Assembly: GCF_900099695.1 (NCBI RefSeq)
Contig: NZ_FNCY01000001.1
Coordinates: forward strand, 558,001 to 622,000
Source: Propionivibrio dicarboxylicus
Lineage (GTDB): Bacteria; Pseudomonadota; Gammaproteobacteria; Burkholderiales; Rhodocyclaceae
Reading direction: 5' to 3'
Length of the DNA: 64,000 nt
Shown here piece by piece: positions 40,700-59,643 of the stretch. The translations under genes and the position numbers were made by a program. Numbering within the stretch: the stretch's first letter is position 1; each line of letters begins with the position of its first letter. Below the pieces are notes generated by a model. It did no database searches. It was not told the DNA's origin and saw only the letters and a list, made by a program, of their open reading frames with translations.

Positions 40700-40766
40700 A
40701 AAACAAAAAAGCCACTCGGTTAAGAGTGGCTAATTTGTTTGTTTTCAAAAAGTTACGTGGCGCGCC
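40700..40766. repeat. Right border copy of the tRNA-Arg(ACG) downstream flank
   Basis: Matches 27870-27936 at 61 of 67 positions. Includes the tRNA terminator and the last nine bases of the tRNA. The six differences show that it was brought in with an element rather than copied recently from the left flank. Confidence 0.7.
40702..40731 (-). terminator. Terminator of tRNA-Arg(ACG)
   Basis: Minus strand AGCCACTC, loop TTAACC, GAGTGGCT, then TTTTTGTTTT; 27 bases beyond the tRNA 3' end. Confidence 0.85.
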
Positions 40767-40802
40767 CGGAGCGATTCGAACGCCCGACCCCTTGGTTCGT
40801 AG
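40756..40802. repeat. Right att copy inside tRNA-Arg(ACG)
   Basis: 47 bases identical to 34140-34186. It covers the 3' half of the intact tRNA and defines the integration core of element B. Confidence 0.85.
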
Positions 40803-40834
40803 CCAAGTACTCTATCCAACTGAGCTACGGGCGC
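40758..40834 (-). tRNA. tRNA-Arg (anticodon ACG)
   Basis: 77 bases including encoded CCA. Acceptor GCGCCCG/CGGGCGC, D arm GCTCAGTTGGATAGAGT, anticodon stem CTTGG/CCAAG with loop CTACGAA, T arm GGGCGTTCGAATCGCTC. It is the integration target of the adjacent island and stays complete because the insertion restores its 3' end. Confidence 0.95.
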
Positions 40835-40855
40835 TACGCGTTTTTGAAGTCGCGG

Positions 40856-40884
40856 ATTGTACAGGTCAGCTCGGCAAGAGTCCA
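40856..40884 (-). promoter_or_regulatory. Promoter of tRNA-Arg(ACG)
   Basis: Minus strand TGGACT (40884-40879), 17-base spacer, TACAAT (40861-40856), 22 bases before the tRNA 5' end. Confidence 0.6.
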
Positions 40885-40908
40885 TGCCCGCGTGCGTTTT
40901 GCGGCCCC

Positions 40909-40948
40909 AAAAACAAAAAAGGCCGATTCCTGGTGGAATCAGCCTTTT
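40909..40948 (-). terminator. Terminator of tRNA-Arg(CCG)
   Basis: Minus strand GGCTGATTCC, loop ACCA, GGAATCGGCC, followed by TTTTTTGTTTTT; one internal mismatch. Lies ten bases beyond the tRNA. Confidence 0.85.
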
Positions 40949-40957
40949 CCTGAATGC

Positions 40958-41034
40958 TGGCGCGCCCGAGACGATTCGAACGTCCGACCCCTGCCTTCGG
41001 AGGGCAGTACTCTATCCAGCTGAGCTACGGGCGC
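40958..41034 (-). tRNA. tRNA-Arg (anticodon CCG)
   Basis: 77 bases with CCA. Acceptor GCGCCCG/CGGGCGC, D arm GCTCAGCTGGATAGAGT, anticodon stem CTGCC/GGCAG with loop CTCCGAA, T arm GGACGTTCGAATCGTCT. Same acceptor stem as the ACG tRNA next to it, but no inserted element here. Confidence 0.95.
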
Positions 41035-53304: not shown

Positions 53305-53665
53305 TGCGTTCGTTCTCCGGAGCGGTCGGCGTGGCGGCGTTCTTCTCGGCCTCGCGGCGGAATTTTTCGCGCGTCACCGAGACGCCAAGGTAATAACCGA
53401 TGACGCCGGCGCCGATCGCCGCCTGCAGTGCGAAAAGCAGCGAAGCAATCTCGTTGCTGGCGGGTTCGATGATCGGCGAGAACCACGGCTTGTAGTCGGG
53501 GTTGATGCTGCCGATCATGTTCTTGGCTTTGTCGTCGGCGCCGGTGAAGATTTCGGCGGCCTCGCTGCCCGGCGTCGCCTCTGGCTTCTGCACGAGCCAC
53601 AGCGGCAGCGCCGAGAGCAGCACGACGCCGAGGATCAGCAGCAGGTTGACCGGGCGTTTCTTCAT
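53294..53665 (-). CDS. cbiN: Cobalt transport protein CbiN
   Basis: 123 residues. Two membrane helices ([19 protein letters not shown] and [18 protein letters not shown]) around a periplasmic loop with [12 protein letters not shown] and [16 protein letters not shown]. CbiN stimulates cobalt loading of CbiM. Overlaps cbiM by four bases. Confidence 0.93.
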
Positions 53666-54342
53666 TGCGCGCGGACTTCCAGGTCGGTCGACAGCTTGAG
53701 GCTGCGCAACTCCTGGGCATTGAAGCGGGCCAGCGCGTTGAAGACGAGGACGGTCAGCAGGCCTTCGCTGATCGCCAGCGGGATCTGCGTGATGGCGAAG
53801 ATGCCGGCGAACTTGGCGAGCGAAACGGCAAAGCCGCCGGTCGCGTCGGGGAAGGCCCAGGCGAGCTGGACCGAGGTCGTGACGTAGGTGGCGAGGTCGG
53901 ACAGGCAGGCGGCGAGGAAGACGCTGAGCGCCAACGACAGGCGCAGGCCACGGGCGACGCGGAAGATGCCGGCGGCGACGAAGGGGCCGACGATGGCCAT
54001 CGAGAAGACGTTGGCGCCGAGCGTCGTCAGGCCGCCATGGGCGAGCAGCAGCGCCTGGAAGAGCAGCACGACGAGGCCGATCGGCGCCATCACGGCAGGA
54101 CCGAAGAGCAGTGCGCCGAGGCCGGTGCCGGTGGGGTGCGAGCAGCTGCCGGTGACCGAGGGCAGCTTCAGGGCCGAGAGAATGAAGGTGAAGGCGGCGG
54201 CGACGCCGAGCAGCATGCGCTGTTCGGGGTTGTCACGGAAGCGCTTGCGCACGGCATGGATCCCGTAGGCGACGAAAGGGGCCGAGGCGGCGGTCCAGCC
54301 GAGGGCATGCTCGACGGGGAGATAGCCTTCCATGATATGCAT
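53662..54342 (-). CDS. cbiM: Cobalt ECF transporter substrate-binding component
   Basis: 226 residues. Metal-binding N-terminus MHIMEGYLP, then [22 protein letters not shown] in two pieces, [17 protein letters not shown]. Seven hydrophobic segments. First gene of the riboswitch-led cobalt/cobalamin operon. Ribosome site GAGG before ATG. Confidence 0.95.
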
Positions 54343-54509
54343 GATTCACCTCTGATTCCGAAAGCGACGCGACAACTATGACAACGGTCTCGGAAAAAGG
54401 GGAGTCGATCGGAGGATGGGCTGCCGGTCCTCGGTAGACGGAGGACCATTGAAGCGCGGCAACGAATCGTCAGAACCTCACCCCTCACCCCGAGGATTGG
54501 CACCACATT

Positions 54510-54696
54510 CATTCCAGGCCGGTCTTCTGGCTTGCCGTCTTCCTCCTCCGGCGCCTTCCCATGCGATTGTGTCGCACAGTGGCATCGTGCCGGATTCGTC
54601 AGGCCTACAGCAGCGGGGGGCTGCGTCGGAATTACCGCGCACGGCGGAGTCACCGACTTCCCGTTTCACCCGTCCCCCGGAGGGAACAAGGAACCT
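54510..54696 (-). promoter_or_regulatory. Cobalamin riboswitch of the cbiMNQO-cob operon
   Basis: Minus-strand leader with the expected order: GGTTCCTT, GGGTGAAACGGGAA, GGTAATTCCGACGC, CCCGCTGCTGTAGGC, TGCCACTGTG, GGGAAGGCGCC and the B12 box AAGCCAGAAGACC. It lies about 170 bases before cbiM. B12 binding should shut down cobalt uptake and synthesis. Confidence 0.92.
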
Positions 54697-54814
54697 GAAA
54701 TTCGCGCCCATTTTACGCCAAGGACGCAGTGAATGAAAACTGCGGGTTTCCACAAGCCAAGACCTTGTTTTTGTTCAGGACTCGGCTGCAGAAACCGCGT
54801 TGGTCGCGGGGCTT

Positions 54815-55858
54815 TTAGCCCTTGTCGGAGACGCCGGCCGACTCGAAACTGGCCATTTCGTTGAGGAAATTGACGGCCGCCAGCACCAGCGGATAGGCGA
54901 GCGCGGCGCCGGTGCCTTCGCCGAGACGCAGGCCCAGGTTGATCAGCGGCGCTACCTGCATCGCCGCGAGTTGGGCGCGGTGGCCGGGTTCGGCCGAGTG
55001 GTGGCAGAAGATGCAGTAGTCGGTGAAATGCGGGGCCAGCTTGGCGGCGACGAGCGCGGCCGAGCTGACGATGAAGCCGTCGATCAGCAGGACCATGCCG
55101 GCCTGCGCGGCGGCCAGCATGGCGCCGGCCATCATGGCGATCTCGTAGCCGCCGAACTCGGTCAGCGCGGCGAGCGGTTCGGTGATGCGTCCGGTGCGCG
55201 CCAGAGCCTGGTCGAGCAGCGCGCGCTTGCGTTGCAGGCCGGCGTCGTCGAGACCGGTGCCACGGCCGATGCACTCGGTGAGCGGGACACCGGTCAGGCA
55301 GTGGGTGATGAGCGAGGCCGAGGCGGTGTTGCCGATGCCCATCTCGCCGAAGCCGATGACGTTGCAACCCTCGGCGGCGAGTTTGCGGACGAGCGCCGCG
55401 CCGCGTTCGAGCGCAGCGTCGCACTCGGCGTCGGTCATCGCCGGTTCCTCGATGTAGTTGCGCGTACTCGCTGCGATCTTGGCGTCGACGAGGCCGTCAC
55501 GAACACCAAAATCATGGGCGACGCCGGCGTCGACGATGGTCAGGCCGATACCGTTCTGGCGCGCGAAGACGTTGATGCCGGCGCCGCCGGCGAGGAAATT
55601 CTCGACCATCTGCCACGTCACTTCCTGCGGATAGGCGGAGACGCCGGCCTTGGCGGCGCCGTGGTCGCCGGCGAAGACGAGGATCTGCGGATGCGCGAGC
55701 CGGGGCGTCGCGGTTTGCTGGATCAGGCCGATCTGCAGCGCCATCGCTTCGAGTTGTCCGAGGGCGCCGAGCGGCTTGGTCTTGCGGTCGATCTTGTGCT
55801 GCAGCGTGACGGCGAGTGCACGGTCGGGGGCGGCGAGCGAGAATAAGGGGGAAGTCAT
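54815..55858 (-). CDS. cobT: Nicotinate-nucleotide--dimethylbenzimidazole phosphoribosyltransferase
   Basis: 347 residues from ATG 55858. Activates the lower ligand as alpha-ribazole phosphate. [63 protein letters not shown] and a C-terminal Glu in GEGTGAAL fit CobT. Third gene after the second B12 riboswitch, 26 bases after cbpB. Confidence 0.95.
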
Positions 55859-55884: not shown

Positions 55885-57261
55885 TTATCCGAAATGGCTG
55901 AAGACGGTTTCGGTGGCGTCGTCCCAACCGTCCCAGAGAAAATCGTCGGCGCTGCCGTCGGCGATCAGGCGCAGCGCGTAACGGACCTGCGCCTTGTAGA
56001 AGTCGCAGAAGGCGCCGGTGCGGTCCATGCCGCCGTTCATTTCGTGCGCTTCGGCCGGGCAGGGCGAACCGCAGAAGTGCCGGATCGGACAGTCGTTGCA
56101 CGGTGCGAAGGTATCGACGTCGCGCGCGGTGACGCTGCGGAACGCTTCCGAGGCGAGTGCCGTCGTGATGCCGTGATCATCGAACAGGTTGCCGCCGTTG
56201 AAGCGCGGCAGGCCGATGAATTCGCTGCACGGATAGAGACTGCCGTCGGCCGCCAGTGCGAAGAAGGCGCGGCCGCCGCCGCAGGGCGAGAGGTCGCACA
56301 TCAGCCGGCGCGCCGTCGGTGCGAGGATGCCGATGAGGATGTTGGCGAAATTGGCGACGACGAGCTTGCGGCCGGTCTGACGGAACAGTTCGTGCGAGCG
56401 TTCGAGTGCGGCGATGAAGGCGCGAGCCATCGTCGCATCGTCAGGTTTCACGGTTCGTGCGTCGGGCAGCGTGCAGCGCAATGCATTGAGCATGCAGGTC
56501 GGCACTTCGGCGGCGTGGAACAGATCGACGAGTGCGTTGAGATGCGGCAGGTTTTCCGTCGTGCAGGTGGCGATTACGCTCCAGGAACCGTAGCCGCGCA
56601 GGCGCGCCATCGCATCCAGTACTTTGTCATGAACGCTCTTGCCGGCCCAGGTCTTGCGCGTGGCGTCGGTGATGCCGGCGAGCGGCCCGTCGAGCGAGAG
56701 GCCGATGCTGGCGTTGCGCGCCGTCAGGAATTCGACGGCGCTGTCATCGAGCAGGGTGGCGTTGGTCTGCAGGCCGAAGTCGAAATCGGCGCCAAAGGCG
56801 TCGATCGCGGCGAAGACGGCGTCGCGGTTCATCAGCGGCTCGGCGCCGTGGAAGATCGCTCGCGGCAGGCGGCCCGGCGGCATCACCGTGCGGAAATAGT
56901 CGCGCAGGCGCTCAAGCGCGGCGAGCAAGCGCTCGGTCGTCATGCGCTGGCCGTCGCGTCGTTGCGCACGCGGCAGATAGCAGTAGCTGCAATCGAGGTT
57001 GCAACGCTCGGTCGGGTTCAGGTAGACGCCGGAGGGCGTCAGGCCAAAACGCAGCGCCTGCATTTCGGCGGCGAAGTCGTCGGCCTGGTCGCGCCAGGCC
57101 TGCATCATCGGCAGGTGATCGGCGGTCGCGGCGTCGAGTTGGTGTTTGTCCACCAGCATCCAGAACGCCGATTCCGGCTCGATGACCGCGGCATAGCTGT
57201 CGTGTTCGATGTCGACGGCCAATAGCGGGCCGGCGGCCCGCGTCAGTTCGGCGACTTTCAT
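55885..57261 (-). CDS. cbpB: Peptide-modifying radical SAM/SPASM enzyme, CbpB type
   Basis: 458 residues. Radical SAM cluster C87-x3-C91-x2-C94 ([13 protein letters not shown]), [16 protein letters not shown]-terminal SPASM-like region with many Cys ([46 protein letters not shown]) for two auxiliary Fe-S clusters. Start ATG directly follows the stop of a 49-residue peptide gene. Architecture matches peptide-maturing enzymes related to anaerobic sulfatase maturases, and context (B12 riboswitch, precursor) matches the CbpA/CbpB pair defined by comparative genomics. The modification made is unknown. Confidence 0.88.
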
Positions 57262-57411
57262 TTACTTGGCCGCTCTCCGGTCCATCAGCACGTAATGCGA
57301 CAGGCCGATGCCATCGGGATGGCAACGCTTGCGCATGGCGATGCTCGCGACGGGGGCGGTCGGTTGGGTGGCGGCCTGGGTGGCCGGTTGGGCGGGCTGT
57401 TGTGGCGACAT
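57262..57411 (-). CDS. cbpA: Modified-peptide precursor, CbpA type
   Basis: 49 residues, start ATG 57411 with GAGAGG upstream, stop TAA immediately followed by the cbpB ATG. The N-terminal half is a Pro/Gln/Ala/Thr-rich leader (MSPQQPAQPATQAATQ), the C-terminal half is a compact core RCHPDGIGLSHYVLMDRR with one Cys and two His, good metal ligands. It is the only gene between the B12 riboswitch and the radical SAM enzyme. It should be a ribosomally made, post-translationally modified peptide. A different frame over the same bases is a shadow. Confidence 0.85.
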   Translation of the reverse strand: MSPQQPAQPATQAATQPTAPVASIAMRKRCHPDGIGLSHYVLMDRRAAK

Positions 57412-57507
57412 GATCCTCTCCTCGGGACAGTGCATGAGTCATCAGGACAAGAGGCGTGCAGGCGCACGGCGATGGCCGGCGCGGATGCGGCTTCTTGCTT
57501 GTTCTGC

Positions 57508-57675
57508 ACGGTTCGAGACGTCTTCTGGCTCCCGGATCAACCGAACTGCTGCGCCTTCCCGGAGGATGTCCCCCAGTGGCTGGTCGTGCGACCGTGCAGC
57601 ATTCGTCCCCGGATACAGCGGCGGGCCCGCCACGGATTTTCACCGTGTTCCGTTTCGTCGAACCGAACGGAACGC
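57508..57675 (-). promoter_or_regulatory. Cobalamin riboswitch of the cbpA-cbpB-cobT operon
   Basis: P1 stem CGGTTCG (57665-57659) with CGAACCG (57515-57509) on the minus strand. Inside: GGTGAAAATCCGTGG, CGGGCCCGCCGCTGTATCC, AGCCACTGGGGGA, CGGGAAGGCGC and B12 box GAGCCAGAAGACG. It starts 18 bases after the cobD stop and ends about 100 bases before cbpA. Confidence 0.92.
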
Positions 57676-57692
57676 GAATTATCCCGTTGTTG

Positions 57693-58694
57693 TCAGGACA
57701 GCGTCAAGGCGGCGGCGGTCAGCTGCGCCAGCGCGGCGTCGAGCCGTTCCCATTCGCTTTCGTTGCCGGGCAGGCCGAAACGGATCAGTCCGTGCGCGTC
57801 GAAACGTCGCACGAGGATGGCATGGCGGGCGAAATGCTCGGCAAGCGCGCTGGCCTGTGCCGTCTTGACGGTGCAGAACAGGGCCGTGCGCTGAACCTCG
57901 CCCAGTGGTGCGAGCGCCTGTTCGAGGCGGATGGAGGCAGTTTCAAGGCGTTGCCGCGCGCCGTCCTGCCAGGCGGTGTCGGCGAGTGCGTGGCGGGCGA
58001 CGAAGCGCGCCGGGTGGGAGAGCGGCCAGGGGCCGAGTTTTTCGCGCAGGGCATCGAGTTTCTCGGCGACACCGAAGACGAAGCCGACGCGGGCACCGGC
58101 GAGGCCGAAGAACTTGCCGAGCGAGCGCAGCACGATCAGGTTCGGCGCGGCCTCGCTGCCGGCGAGATCGACGACGTTGTCCTGCGGACTGGCGTCGCCG
58201 AAGGCTTCGTCGACGATCAGCCAGCCGCCGCGCCGCCGCAACTGTTCGGCAGCGTCGACAACGGCATCGCGCGGTGTTGCGTTGCCGGTTGGGTTGTTCG
58301 GGTTGCAGATCAGGACCAAGGGCGTCGCCGCCGCGAGGGCGCGGGCGAGCGTCGGCAGTCGCCGCACGCGATGGCCGGCGCGTTCCCAGGCGTGCGGATG
58401 TTCTTCGTAGATCGGCGCGACGCAGGCGATGACTTGCGGGGCGAAAAACAGCGGCAGCGTCTGGATCGCCGCCTGCGACCCGGACAGCGCGAGCAGACGG
58501 TCGTTGCCATAGTAGGCGGCGGCCGTGGTTTCGAGTCCGTCGTTGTCTTCGGGGAGGCGGTTCCAGCAGGCCGGATCGATCGCCGGGATCGGGTAGGTTT
58601 CGGGATTGATGCCGGTCGACAGGTCGACCCAGCGCTCGACCGGGATGTTGTGTGCCTGGGCCGCGGCCAGCAGGCGTCCACCATGTTCAAGCAC
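57693..58694 (-). CDS. cobD: Threonine-phosphate decarboxylase (aminopropanol linker synthesis)
   Basis: 333 residues from GTG 58694, which overlaps the cbiB stop; the frame upstream is not protein-like. PLP-dependent class I/II aminotransferase fold: LSTGINPETYP, ALSGSQAAIQTLP, CNPNNPTGNATP, IVDEAFGD and PLP Lys in LRSLGKFFGLAGARVGF. Also named cobC in Pseudomonas-type nomenclature. Supplies aminopropanol phosphate for CbiB. Confidence 0.92.
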   Translation of the reverse strand: MLEHGGRLLAAAQAHNIPVERWVDLSTGINPETYPIPAIDPACWNRLPEDNDGLETTAAAYYGNDRLLALSGSQAAIQTLPLFFAPQVIACVAPIYEEHPHAWERAGHRVRRLPTLARALAAATPLVLICNPNNPTGNATPRDAVVDAAEQLRRRGGWLIVDEAFGDASPQDNVVDLAGSEAAPNLIVLRSLGKFFGLAGARVGFVFGVAEKLDALREKLGPWPLSHPARFVARHALADTAWQDGARQRLETASIRLEQALAPLGEVQRTALFCTVKTAQASALAEHFARHAILVRRFDAHGLIRFGLPGNESEWERLDAALAQLTAAALTLS

Positions 58695-59643
58695 AGGCGG
58701 CTCCCAACAGGAGGTAAATGACGAGCCACAGCGCCAGGCTGCGACGCACCAGCGCCAGCGCGCGCGGGATGTCCTCGCCGCGGGCGGGGCGACCTTCGCC
58801 AAGCACCGGGCGTTCTTCCAGCTGGCCGTGGTAGATCGCGGCGCCGCCGAGCGCGAGGCCGAGGCTGCCGGCGCCGGACGACATCACCGGTCCGGCGTTA
58901 GGGCTGTCCCAGATCGGCGCCTGCGCACGCCAGCAGCGCAGGGCGCGGGCGGTCTGTCCCATCAGCGCGTAGGAGAGCGCGGTCAGGCGTGCCGGGAAAT
59001 AGTTGAGCGCGTCGTCAAGGCGGGCGGCGACGCGACCGAATTCGAGGAAGCGTGGGGTACGGTAGCCCCACATCGCGTCAAGCGTGTTGGCCAGGCGGAA
59101 GAGTACGGCGCCGGCGCCGCCGAAGAGCATGAACCAGAAGAGCGCGCCGAAGATCGCGTCGTTGCCGTTCTCGAGTGTCGATTCGATGCAGGCCTTGGCG
59201 ACGCCTGATTCGTCCAGTTGCTCGGTGTTGCGCGAGACGATCCAGCCGACGTGCTGGCGGGCGCTGGCGAGGTCGCCGGCGGCGAGGTCGGCGCCGACGT
59301 GTTCGGCGTGTTCGTGCAGGGCGCGGCCGCCGAGGGCGAGATAGAGCAGTGCGACATCGGTCAGCCAGCCGATGAAATCGTAACGTTTGGCCCAGACGGC
59401 GAGGGCGACCCAAGGCAGGACGACGAGCATCCAGGCAAGGGCGCCGCGCAGGATGCGGGCCCGGCCGCCATTCAGCCGGTGTTCGACGGCGCTCGCCAGG
59501 TTTCCGAAGCCGACCAGCGGATGTGCGTGCCGCATTTCGCCGAGCAGGCGGTCAAGGACCACCGCCGCGAGCGCCGCGAGGGGCAGCCACAGCGTCGATG
59601 GAACGCCCGCGAACGGCAGGTCGAGTGAAAACGGGGCAAGCAT
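58687..59643 (-). CDS. cbiB: Adenosylcobinamide-phosphate synthase
   Basis: 318 residues, integral membrane protein (CobD/CbiB). LDRLLGEMRHAHPLVGFG, then VSRNTEQLDESGVAKACIES, NGNDAIFGALFWFMLFGGAGA split between helices and AQAPIWDSPNAGPVMSSGAG are typical. It attaches the aminopropanol linker to adenosylcobyric acid. Divergent from cobQ with 56 bases between. Confidence 0.94.
   Translation of the reverse strand: MLAPFSLDLPFAGVPSTLWLPLAALAAVVLDRLLGEMRHAHPLVGFGNLASAVEHRLNGGRARILRGALAWMLVVLPWVALAVWAKRYDFIGWLTDVALLYLALGGRALHEHAEHVGADLAAGDLASARQHVGWIVSRNTEQLDESGVAKACIESTLENGNDAIFGALFWFMLFGGAGAVLFRLANTLDAMWGYRTPRFLEFGRVAARLDDALNYFPARLTALSYALMGQTARALRCWRAQAPIWDSPNAGPVMSSGAGSLGLALGGAAIYHGQLEERPVLGEGRPARGEDIPRALALVRRSLALWLVIYLLLGAACA

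Follow-up and report, generated by a model that had tools for sequence, protein, structure and literature searches.

When a cobalamin riboswitch stands ahead of a gene for a 49-residue peptide and a gene for a radical SAM enzyme, what does the cell make when B12 runs short, and which step would the product serve? This question is raised by a locus in a 64,000-nucleotide stretch of the Propionivibrio dicarboxylicus contig NZ_FNCY01000001.1 (hereafter the window, by which we mean the whole stretch analyzed); the riboswitches and genes of this locus lie on the reverse strand. The original prediction, which had been made from the sequence of the window alone, described a complete cobalamin riboswitch, and the RNA was indeed matched end to end by the full RF00174 model in cmscan (86 bits; gathering score 31.5). 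It occupies positions 57498-57693, so that the riboswitch is present as described and its true end lies slightly past the 57675 first given. A leader runs from the aptamer to cbpA (57412-57497) and carries, right before the ATG, the segment GAGGAGAGG, which looks like a ribosome-binding site. Then follow cbpA (57262-57411), encoding the 49-residue modified-peptide precursor (TIGR04164, 47 bits; cut-off 35), whose product has no Pfam match, and cbpB (55885-57261), encoding a putative peptide-modifying radical SAM/SPASM enzyme of 458 amino acids (TIGR04163, 694.7 bits; cut-off 375). With both curated NCBIfam models above their cut-offs, the proposed assignment to CbpA/CbpB stands. The two genes are adjacent and co-oriented, and the TAA of cbpA directly abuts the ATG of cbpB without a gap, as had been read from the sequence. 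The cobT gene, also correctly placed after cbpB, begins 26 nt past it (54815-55858; TIGR03160, 447.2 bits) and is probably on the same transcript. Farther along, a second cobalamin riboswitch (54500-54713; cmscan 113.2 bits) precedes cbiM and corrin-ring genes, the first gene past it being cbiM itself, for a component of a cobalt ECF transporter (53662-54342; TIGR00123, 288 bits). The upstream neighbor of the first riboswitch is a cobD-type threonine-phosphate decarboxylase gene (57693-58802 by the limits of the listed open reading frame; TIGR01140, 331.8 bits). The combination of riboswitch, cbpA, and cbpB is real.

To place this locus among its relatives, we used two overlapping sets. The wider set holds 80 loci, the best 80 of 101 relatives that a search of named genomes retrieved when four CbpB proteins from the family of the window served as queries; these loci lie in 77 genomes and include near-copies. 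The second set holds the 26 CbpB genomes of the window's family (27 loci), one of which (G493) looks identical to a genome of the wider set (G328). CbpB was present in 4 of 300 genomes sampled from the order. In three genomes, cbpAB occurs at two loci (L030/L031, L040/L049, and L048/L050). Homologous peptides do sit beside other CbpB genes, as the original prediction anticipated: the CbpA core adjoins cbpB in all 80 related loci. Within this core, R-x2-C-x3-G-x-G-L-S-H, the R, C, both G, L, S, and H are invariant in 80 out of 80 loci (R27, C30, G34, G36, L37, S38, and H39 in the window). The H is followed by Y in 77 and by F in 2 of 79 rows; this table omits L042 (RQRC, outside its pattern), and the invariance count covers all 80. 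The mean entropy of the core codons over the 80 loci is 0.52, 0.33, and 1.23 at the first, second, and third positions, respectively. Base variation concentrates at third codon positions, as a translated peptide under selection would lead one to expect, and because this pattern comes together with a core in every locus, cbpA is not a chance open reading frame. The proposed invariance of Cys30, His31, and His39 holds for Cys30 and His39 and fails for His31: a His directly after the core Cys occurs in 0 of the 80 related loci, and of the 27 family loci, the window and its congener L115 alone have one. The Pro/Gln/Ala-rich leader peptide noted for the window is likewise a feature of the window and its relatives and not a general one, many distant relatives having a Lys-rich leader. 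The core itself is almost fixed over several phyla. A quick CbpB tree of 57 rows (56 of the 80 loci and the window) carries nine phylum labels and needs 12 changes between them against a minimum of 8, which hints at some transfer of cbpAB between phyla, the bins and labels being uncertain.

We then turned to the enzyme. Its proposed identity as a SPASM radical SAM protein is borne out, since CbpB is over the gathering scores for PF04055 and PF13186 as well as over the cut-off for TIGR04163. In a 50-row alignment, the CxxxCxxC motif, with the spacing customary for radical SAM enzymes, and the auxiliary-cluster cysteines of the SPASM domain are invariant. Apart from its own family, the best NCBIfam matches of CbpB are to PapB (a ranthipeptide maturase), the thioether maturase of SCIFF, and cyclophane maturases, among others, all of them far under cut-off. 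The PapB-type maturases (NF047865), which are also radical SAM/SPASM enzymes, give the best of these matches at 110.2 bits, far under the cut-off of 340; moreover, CbpA has a single invariant Cys and no invariant acidic residue, the acidic position of its core being D or E in 71 of the 79 rows. The closest fold is that of the SCIFF thioether maturase (CteB; PDB 5why/5wgg), with a TM score of 0.70-0.74 by target length, whereas identity is 19-20% and the score with TIGR03974 is 91.5 bits against a cut-off of 425. CbpB thus falls below both family cut-offs and was not classed as a ranthipeptide or SCIFF maturase. Other top fold matches were TigE, an anaerobic sulfatase-maturating enzyme, and ChlB; a search of P0001 against solved structures gave no match. 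For the peptide together with its enzyme, we used AlphaFold2 models in which cbpA-TAA-cbpB was read as one artificially tethered chain, and modeled two such chains (the window and L071). In these models, strands of middling confidence form around the I-A-x-R-K stretch (block mean 71 in the window, 76 and 67 in L071), and confidence past the core Cys stays below 50 in both chains. This predicted arrangement suggests that the I-A-x-R-K segment is the part of CbpA that CbpB would recognize. By analogy with known SPASM systems, it is very probable that CbpB modifies CbpA.

How general is the control by B12? We built a covariance model (R1) from 17 of the 80 loci, picked by pattern, and the two riboswitches of the window; those 17 loci match by construction, and the window riboswitch, at 162.7 bits, is itself among the building sequences. 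With R1, 70 of the 80 loci show a riboswitch no more than 900 nt upstream of the cbpA stop, and 53 of the 63 loci outside the building set are matched. The Rfam model adds one locus (L082), which brings the loci with a directly upstream riboswitch to 71 of the 80, and in the completeness-filtered family set one lies upstream of cbpAB in 27 out of 27 loci (26 genomes). B12-responsive control, as originally proposed, is well supported by these counts, and we are nearly certain of both the gene identities and the control of cbpAB by B12. From the class of RNA, we infer that B12 represses the pair. Nine loci lack a directly upstream riboswitch, and five of them (L032, L033, L040, L054, and L079) are surrounded by corrinoid genes and have their riboswitch farther upstream on the same strand; those of L032, L054, and L079 pass the Rfam score, and those of L033 and L040 reach about 30 bits by R1 only. 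L086 also lies among corrinoid genes, with no riboswitch on the fetched piece; in L041 and L085, the fetched sequence starts too near cbpA; and no B12 riboswitch was found upstream of cbpAB in L012. The same negative result was obtained for the cbpAB copy on the Methylovirgula plasmid pHY1 (L097, 8807-10386), which lies near pqqA, pqqD, and pqqE. A plain energy fold of the window leader is unremarkable (z = -1.40, with 11 of 100 shuffles as stable); the identification of the window riboswitch is based on the covariance model. In 51 of 70 loci, the stretch from the aptamer to cbpA holds a strong hairpin with T after it, compared with 4 of 70 in a one-shuffle control; a looser terminator test, run without a shuffled control, gives a hairpin in 12 of the 19 remaining loci (the match in L077 is weak). 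No T-run terminator was found in the window leader or in that of L115, and therefore control of cbpAB in these two may act on translation. By eye, arms resembling GGGTTCCG and CGGAACCC recur across phyla in the terminator stems of distant relatives, a likeness that exceeds what a terminator seems to need.

Given this control, we asked whether the neighborhood names the step that the peptide serves. The setting inside a cobalamin locus, on which the original prediction was built, is true of the window and of a minority of its relatives: a corrinoid gene lies within 5 kb of cbpAB in 20 of the 80 loci, and in 15 of the 50 that have 5 kb on both sides, where the 20 of 80 is approximate because many loci are short, some query names were assigned by eye, and CbiF matches can be CysG cross-matches (the gene in L018 is CysG, and that in L069 is suspected to be). 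We therefore rejected a fixed tie of cbpAB to the cobalamin locus. Among the neighborhood genes of the 81 loci compared, no third gene cluster, exporter or receptor genes included, occurs in more than 18, by approximate gene calling. By the same gene calling, which missed cobT as the next gene in the window, the next gene downstream is on the opposite strand in 40 of the 81 loci; in 24 it shares the strand of cbpB and lies no more than 150 nt away. Because no other gene accompanies cbpAB, we do not name the corrinoid step from its neighbors. The cluster that reaches this maximum of 18, one of ABC ATPases (cluster 1), had been a candidate for CbiO; the annotation of four of its members shows a mixture of ABC ATPases, so we did not use it as an argument for cobalt. 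The neighborhood bears on two further explanations. The position of cobT directly downstream in the window, together with a genome in which BluB was not found, would suit a role of CbpAB in making or delivering the lower ligand of the corrinoid, but just 4 of the 80 relatives have a CobT match within 5 kb, and 48 of the 80 CbpB genomes have a BluB match above cut-off (the marker searches omit G111, and G278 and G337 look like one genome). Since BluB and CbpB coexist in so many genomes, we rejected lower-ligand synthesis, which we consider extremely improbable. The other explanation is a signal or antimicrobial peptide released at B12 shortage. Genes of the HlyD-type adaptor and ABC exporter type follow cbpB in L072, L076, L078, and L085 (annotated as such for L076 only), which would suit a released peptide; yet this gene set is beside cbpB in those four loci only, and a core that is almost invariant over phyla speaks against such a role, which makes it very unlikely.

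A more specific proposal, close to the reading that the original prediction put first, is that the modified peptide would be a cobalt metallophore or chaperone that binds Co2+ through its Cys and His and feeds B12 synthesis. Several observations are consistent with it: the Cys and one His are invariant in CbpA, cbpAB is a neighbor of cbiM in L079 and L086 and not far from it in the window, and genomes that have the corrin-ring marker CbiC carry CbpB disproportionately often. Specifically, among the genomes of the window's family that are at least 90% complete, CbpB is present in 26 of 247 and CbiC in 88 of 247, and CbiC occurs in 22 of the 26 CbpB genomes against 66 of the 221 others (Fisher's exact test, p = 8e-8, kinship ignored). 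This enrichment may reflect a shared anaerobic life and shared ancestry. Other observations are at odds with the cobalt proposal, as His31 is unconserved, the 5 kb around most loci hold no corrinoid gene, and no third cluster occurs in more than 18 of the 81 loci. The pair also persists in genomes in which no corrin-ring marker was found. In the family set, CbiC is absent from four of the 26 CbpB genomes: G394 and G419 (one contig each), G483 (two contigs), and G493 (90% complete), where for the last three absence means that they are not among the 88 listed CbiC matches. None of the four has cobM_cbiF over cut-off, and each has a riboswitch upstream of cbpA. CbiC absence in a metagenome-assembled genome can reflect incompleteness, so that the strong cases are G394, G419, and G483 (98-100% complete, in one or two contigs). 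Of the 80 genomes searched in the wider set, 18 lack CbiC; none of these 18 has cobM_cbiF over cut-off, and CobS is present in 13 of them. In G394, we found two B12 riboswitches, one before a gene set with a TonB receptor, FecCD, an ABC component, and CobO, and the other before cbpAB. Because genomes without corrin-ring markers keep CbpB, they argue against cobalt scavenging, and we demoted the metallophore from first choice to an unlikely explanation. The distribution accords poorly with a peptide that does no more than capture cobalt for ring synthesis, and better with a step common to B12 makers and salvagers. In G419, another B12 riboswitch (L092) lies ahead of a gene for a ribonucleotide reductase with an ATP cone.

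The main rival to such a common step is a redox cofactor cut from the peptide that would replace the need for a B12-dependent enzyme when B12 is low. Peptide-derived redox cofactors are familiar from PQQ and mycofactocin, whose systems likewise combine a short conserved precursor with a SPASM enzyme and whose product is the cofactor. A core nearly fixed over phyla is what a defined small product would lead one to expect, unlike the variable core of a bacteriocin; cbpAB mostly stands alone under its B12 riboswitch; and makers and salvagers alike have kept it. However, a replacement for B12 would be expected to be enriched in non-makers, and we saw the reverse; in addition, no partner enzyme was found in the neighborhood, and cbpAB differs from the PQQ and mycofactocin systems both in having no kept partner genes and in being controlled by a B12 riboswitch. 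We consider this redox cofactor rather unlikely. Our own preference, which we hold tentatively, is that CbpA yields a product for a corrinoid step, and the proposal as a whole, equally tentative, is that of a B12-repressed, radical-SAM-modified peptide that serves a corrinoid step found in makers and salvagers alike. Under cobalamin shortage, the riboswitch would permit expression of cbpA and cbpB, and in the window also of cobT. CbpB would grip the conserved I-A-x-R-K stretch of CbpA, and its radical chemistry would cross-link or oxidize the core C-x3-G-x-G-L-S-H-[YF]. The likeliest products would be a thioether that links Cys30 with a glycine, or a Tyr/His cyclophane, ideas that follow the chemistry of other families. 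What acts inside the cell would then be the mature peptide itself or a small cofactor excised from it, on a corrinoid step of makers and salvagers. Candidate steps, in place of cobalt capture, are for example the holding or reducing of a corrinoid, or its transfer toward adenosylation and the assembly of the loop. A narrower version, which we consider rather unlikely, makes the product a new kind of molecule for B12 economy: the radical-SAM-modified peptide would be made only at low B12, its Cys/His pair would bind or reduce the corrinoid itself, and makers as well as salvagers could thereby capture, retain, or adenosylate what little corrinoid they have.

The CbpA/CbpB family is already catalogued and annotated: the window pair passes the cut-offs of both TIGR04164 and TIGR04163, a public plasmid record uses the same names, and a study by Haft and Basu reportedly defines the pair. 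To our knowledge, no peptide is part of B12 metabolism, and if the product does handle corrinoids, a peptide would be added to it. Our analysis adds that a riboswitch nearly always accompanies the pair, that its core is invariant, that some carriers have no corrin-ring markers, and that no neighborhood is constant; the window and L115 stand out by the His after the core Cys and have no terminator hairpin. Among the matches listed in the openly licensed literature, we found no paper on the CbpA/CbpB pair, and the excerpt available of PMC12710340 contains no mention of CbpB or cobalamin. According to an excerpt of PMC9062424, many pathways from Haft and Basu's study are still uncharacterised, and many radical SAM peptide systems defined by genome comparison have no product assigned. 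Here, cbpAB offers an unusually direct clue, in that a B12 sensor right before 71 of 80 copies and a near-fixed core narrow the question of function to a few tests in cultivable bacteria. Finally, we made several minor observations in the window's own genome (G000). It encodes CobT (window positions 54815-55858), yet gave no BluB match at E 1e-10. It holds six B12 riboswitches in total, two of them inside the window; near the others we saw, by eye, the starts of CbiM-like frames (L094 and L095), a TonB-dependent receptor frame (L094), and a DBI_PRT/CobT-type gene (L096). At positions 2105-2173 and 40758-41034 of the window lie an int-alpA RNA match, which hints at an integrated element, and two tRNA-Arg genes.
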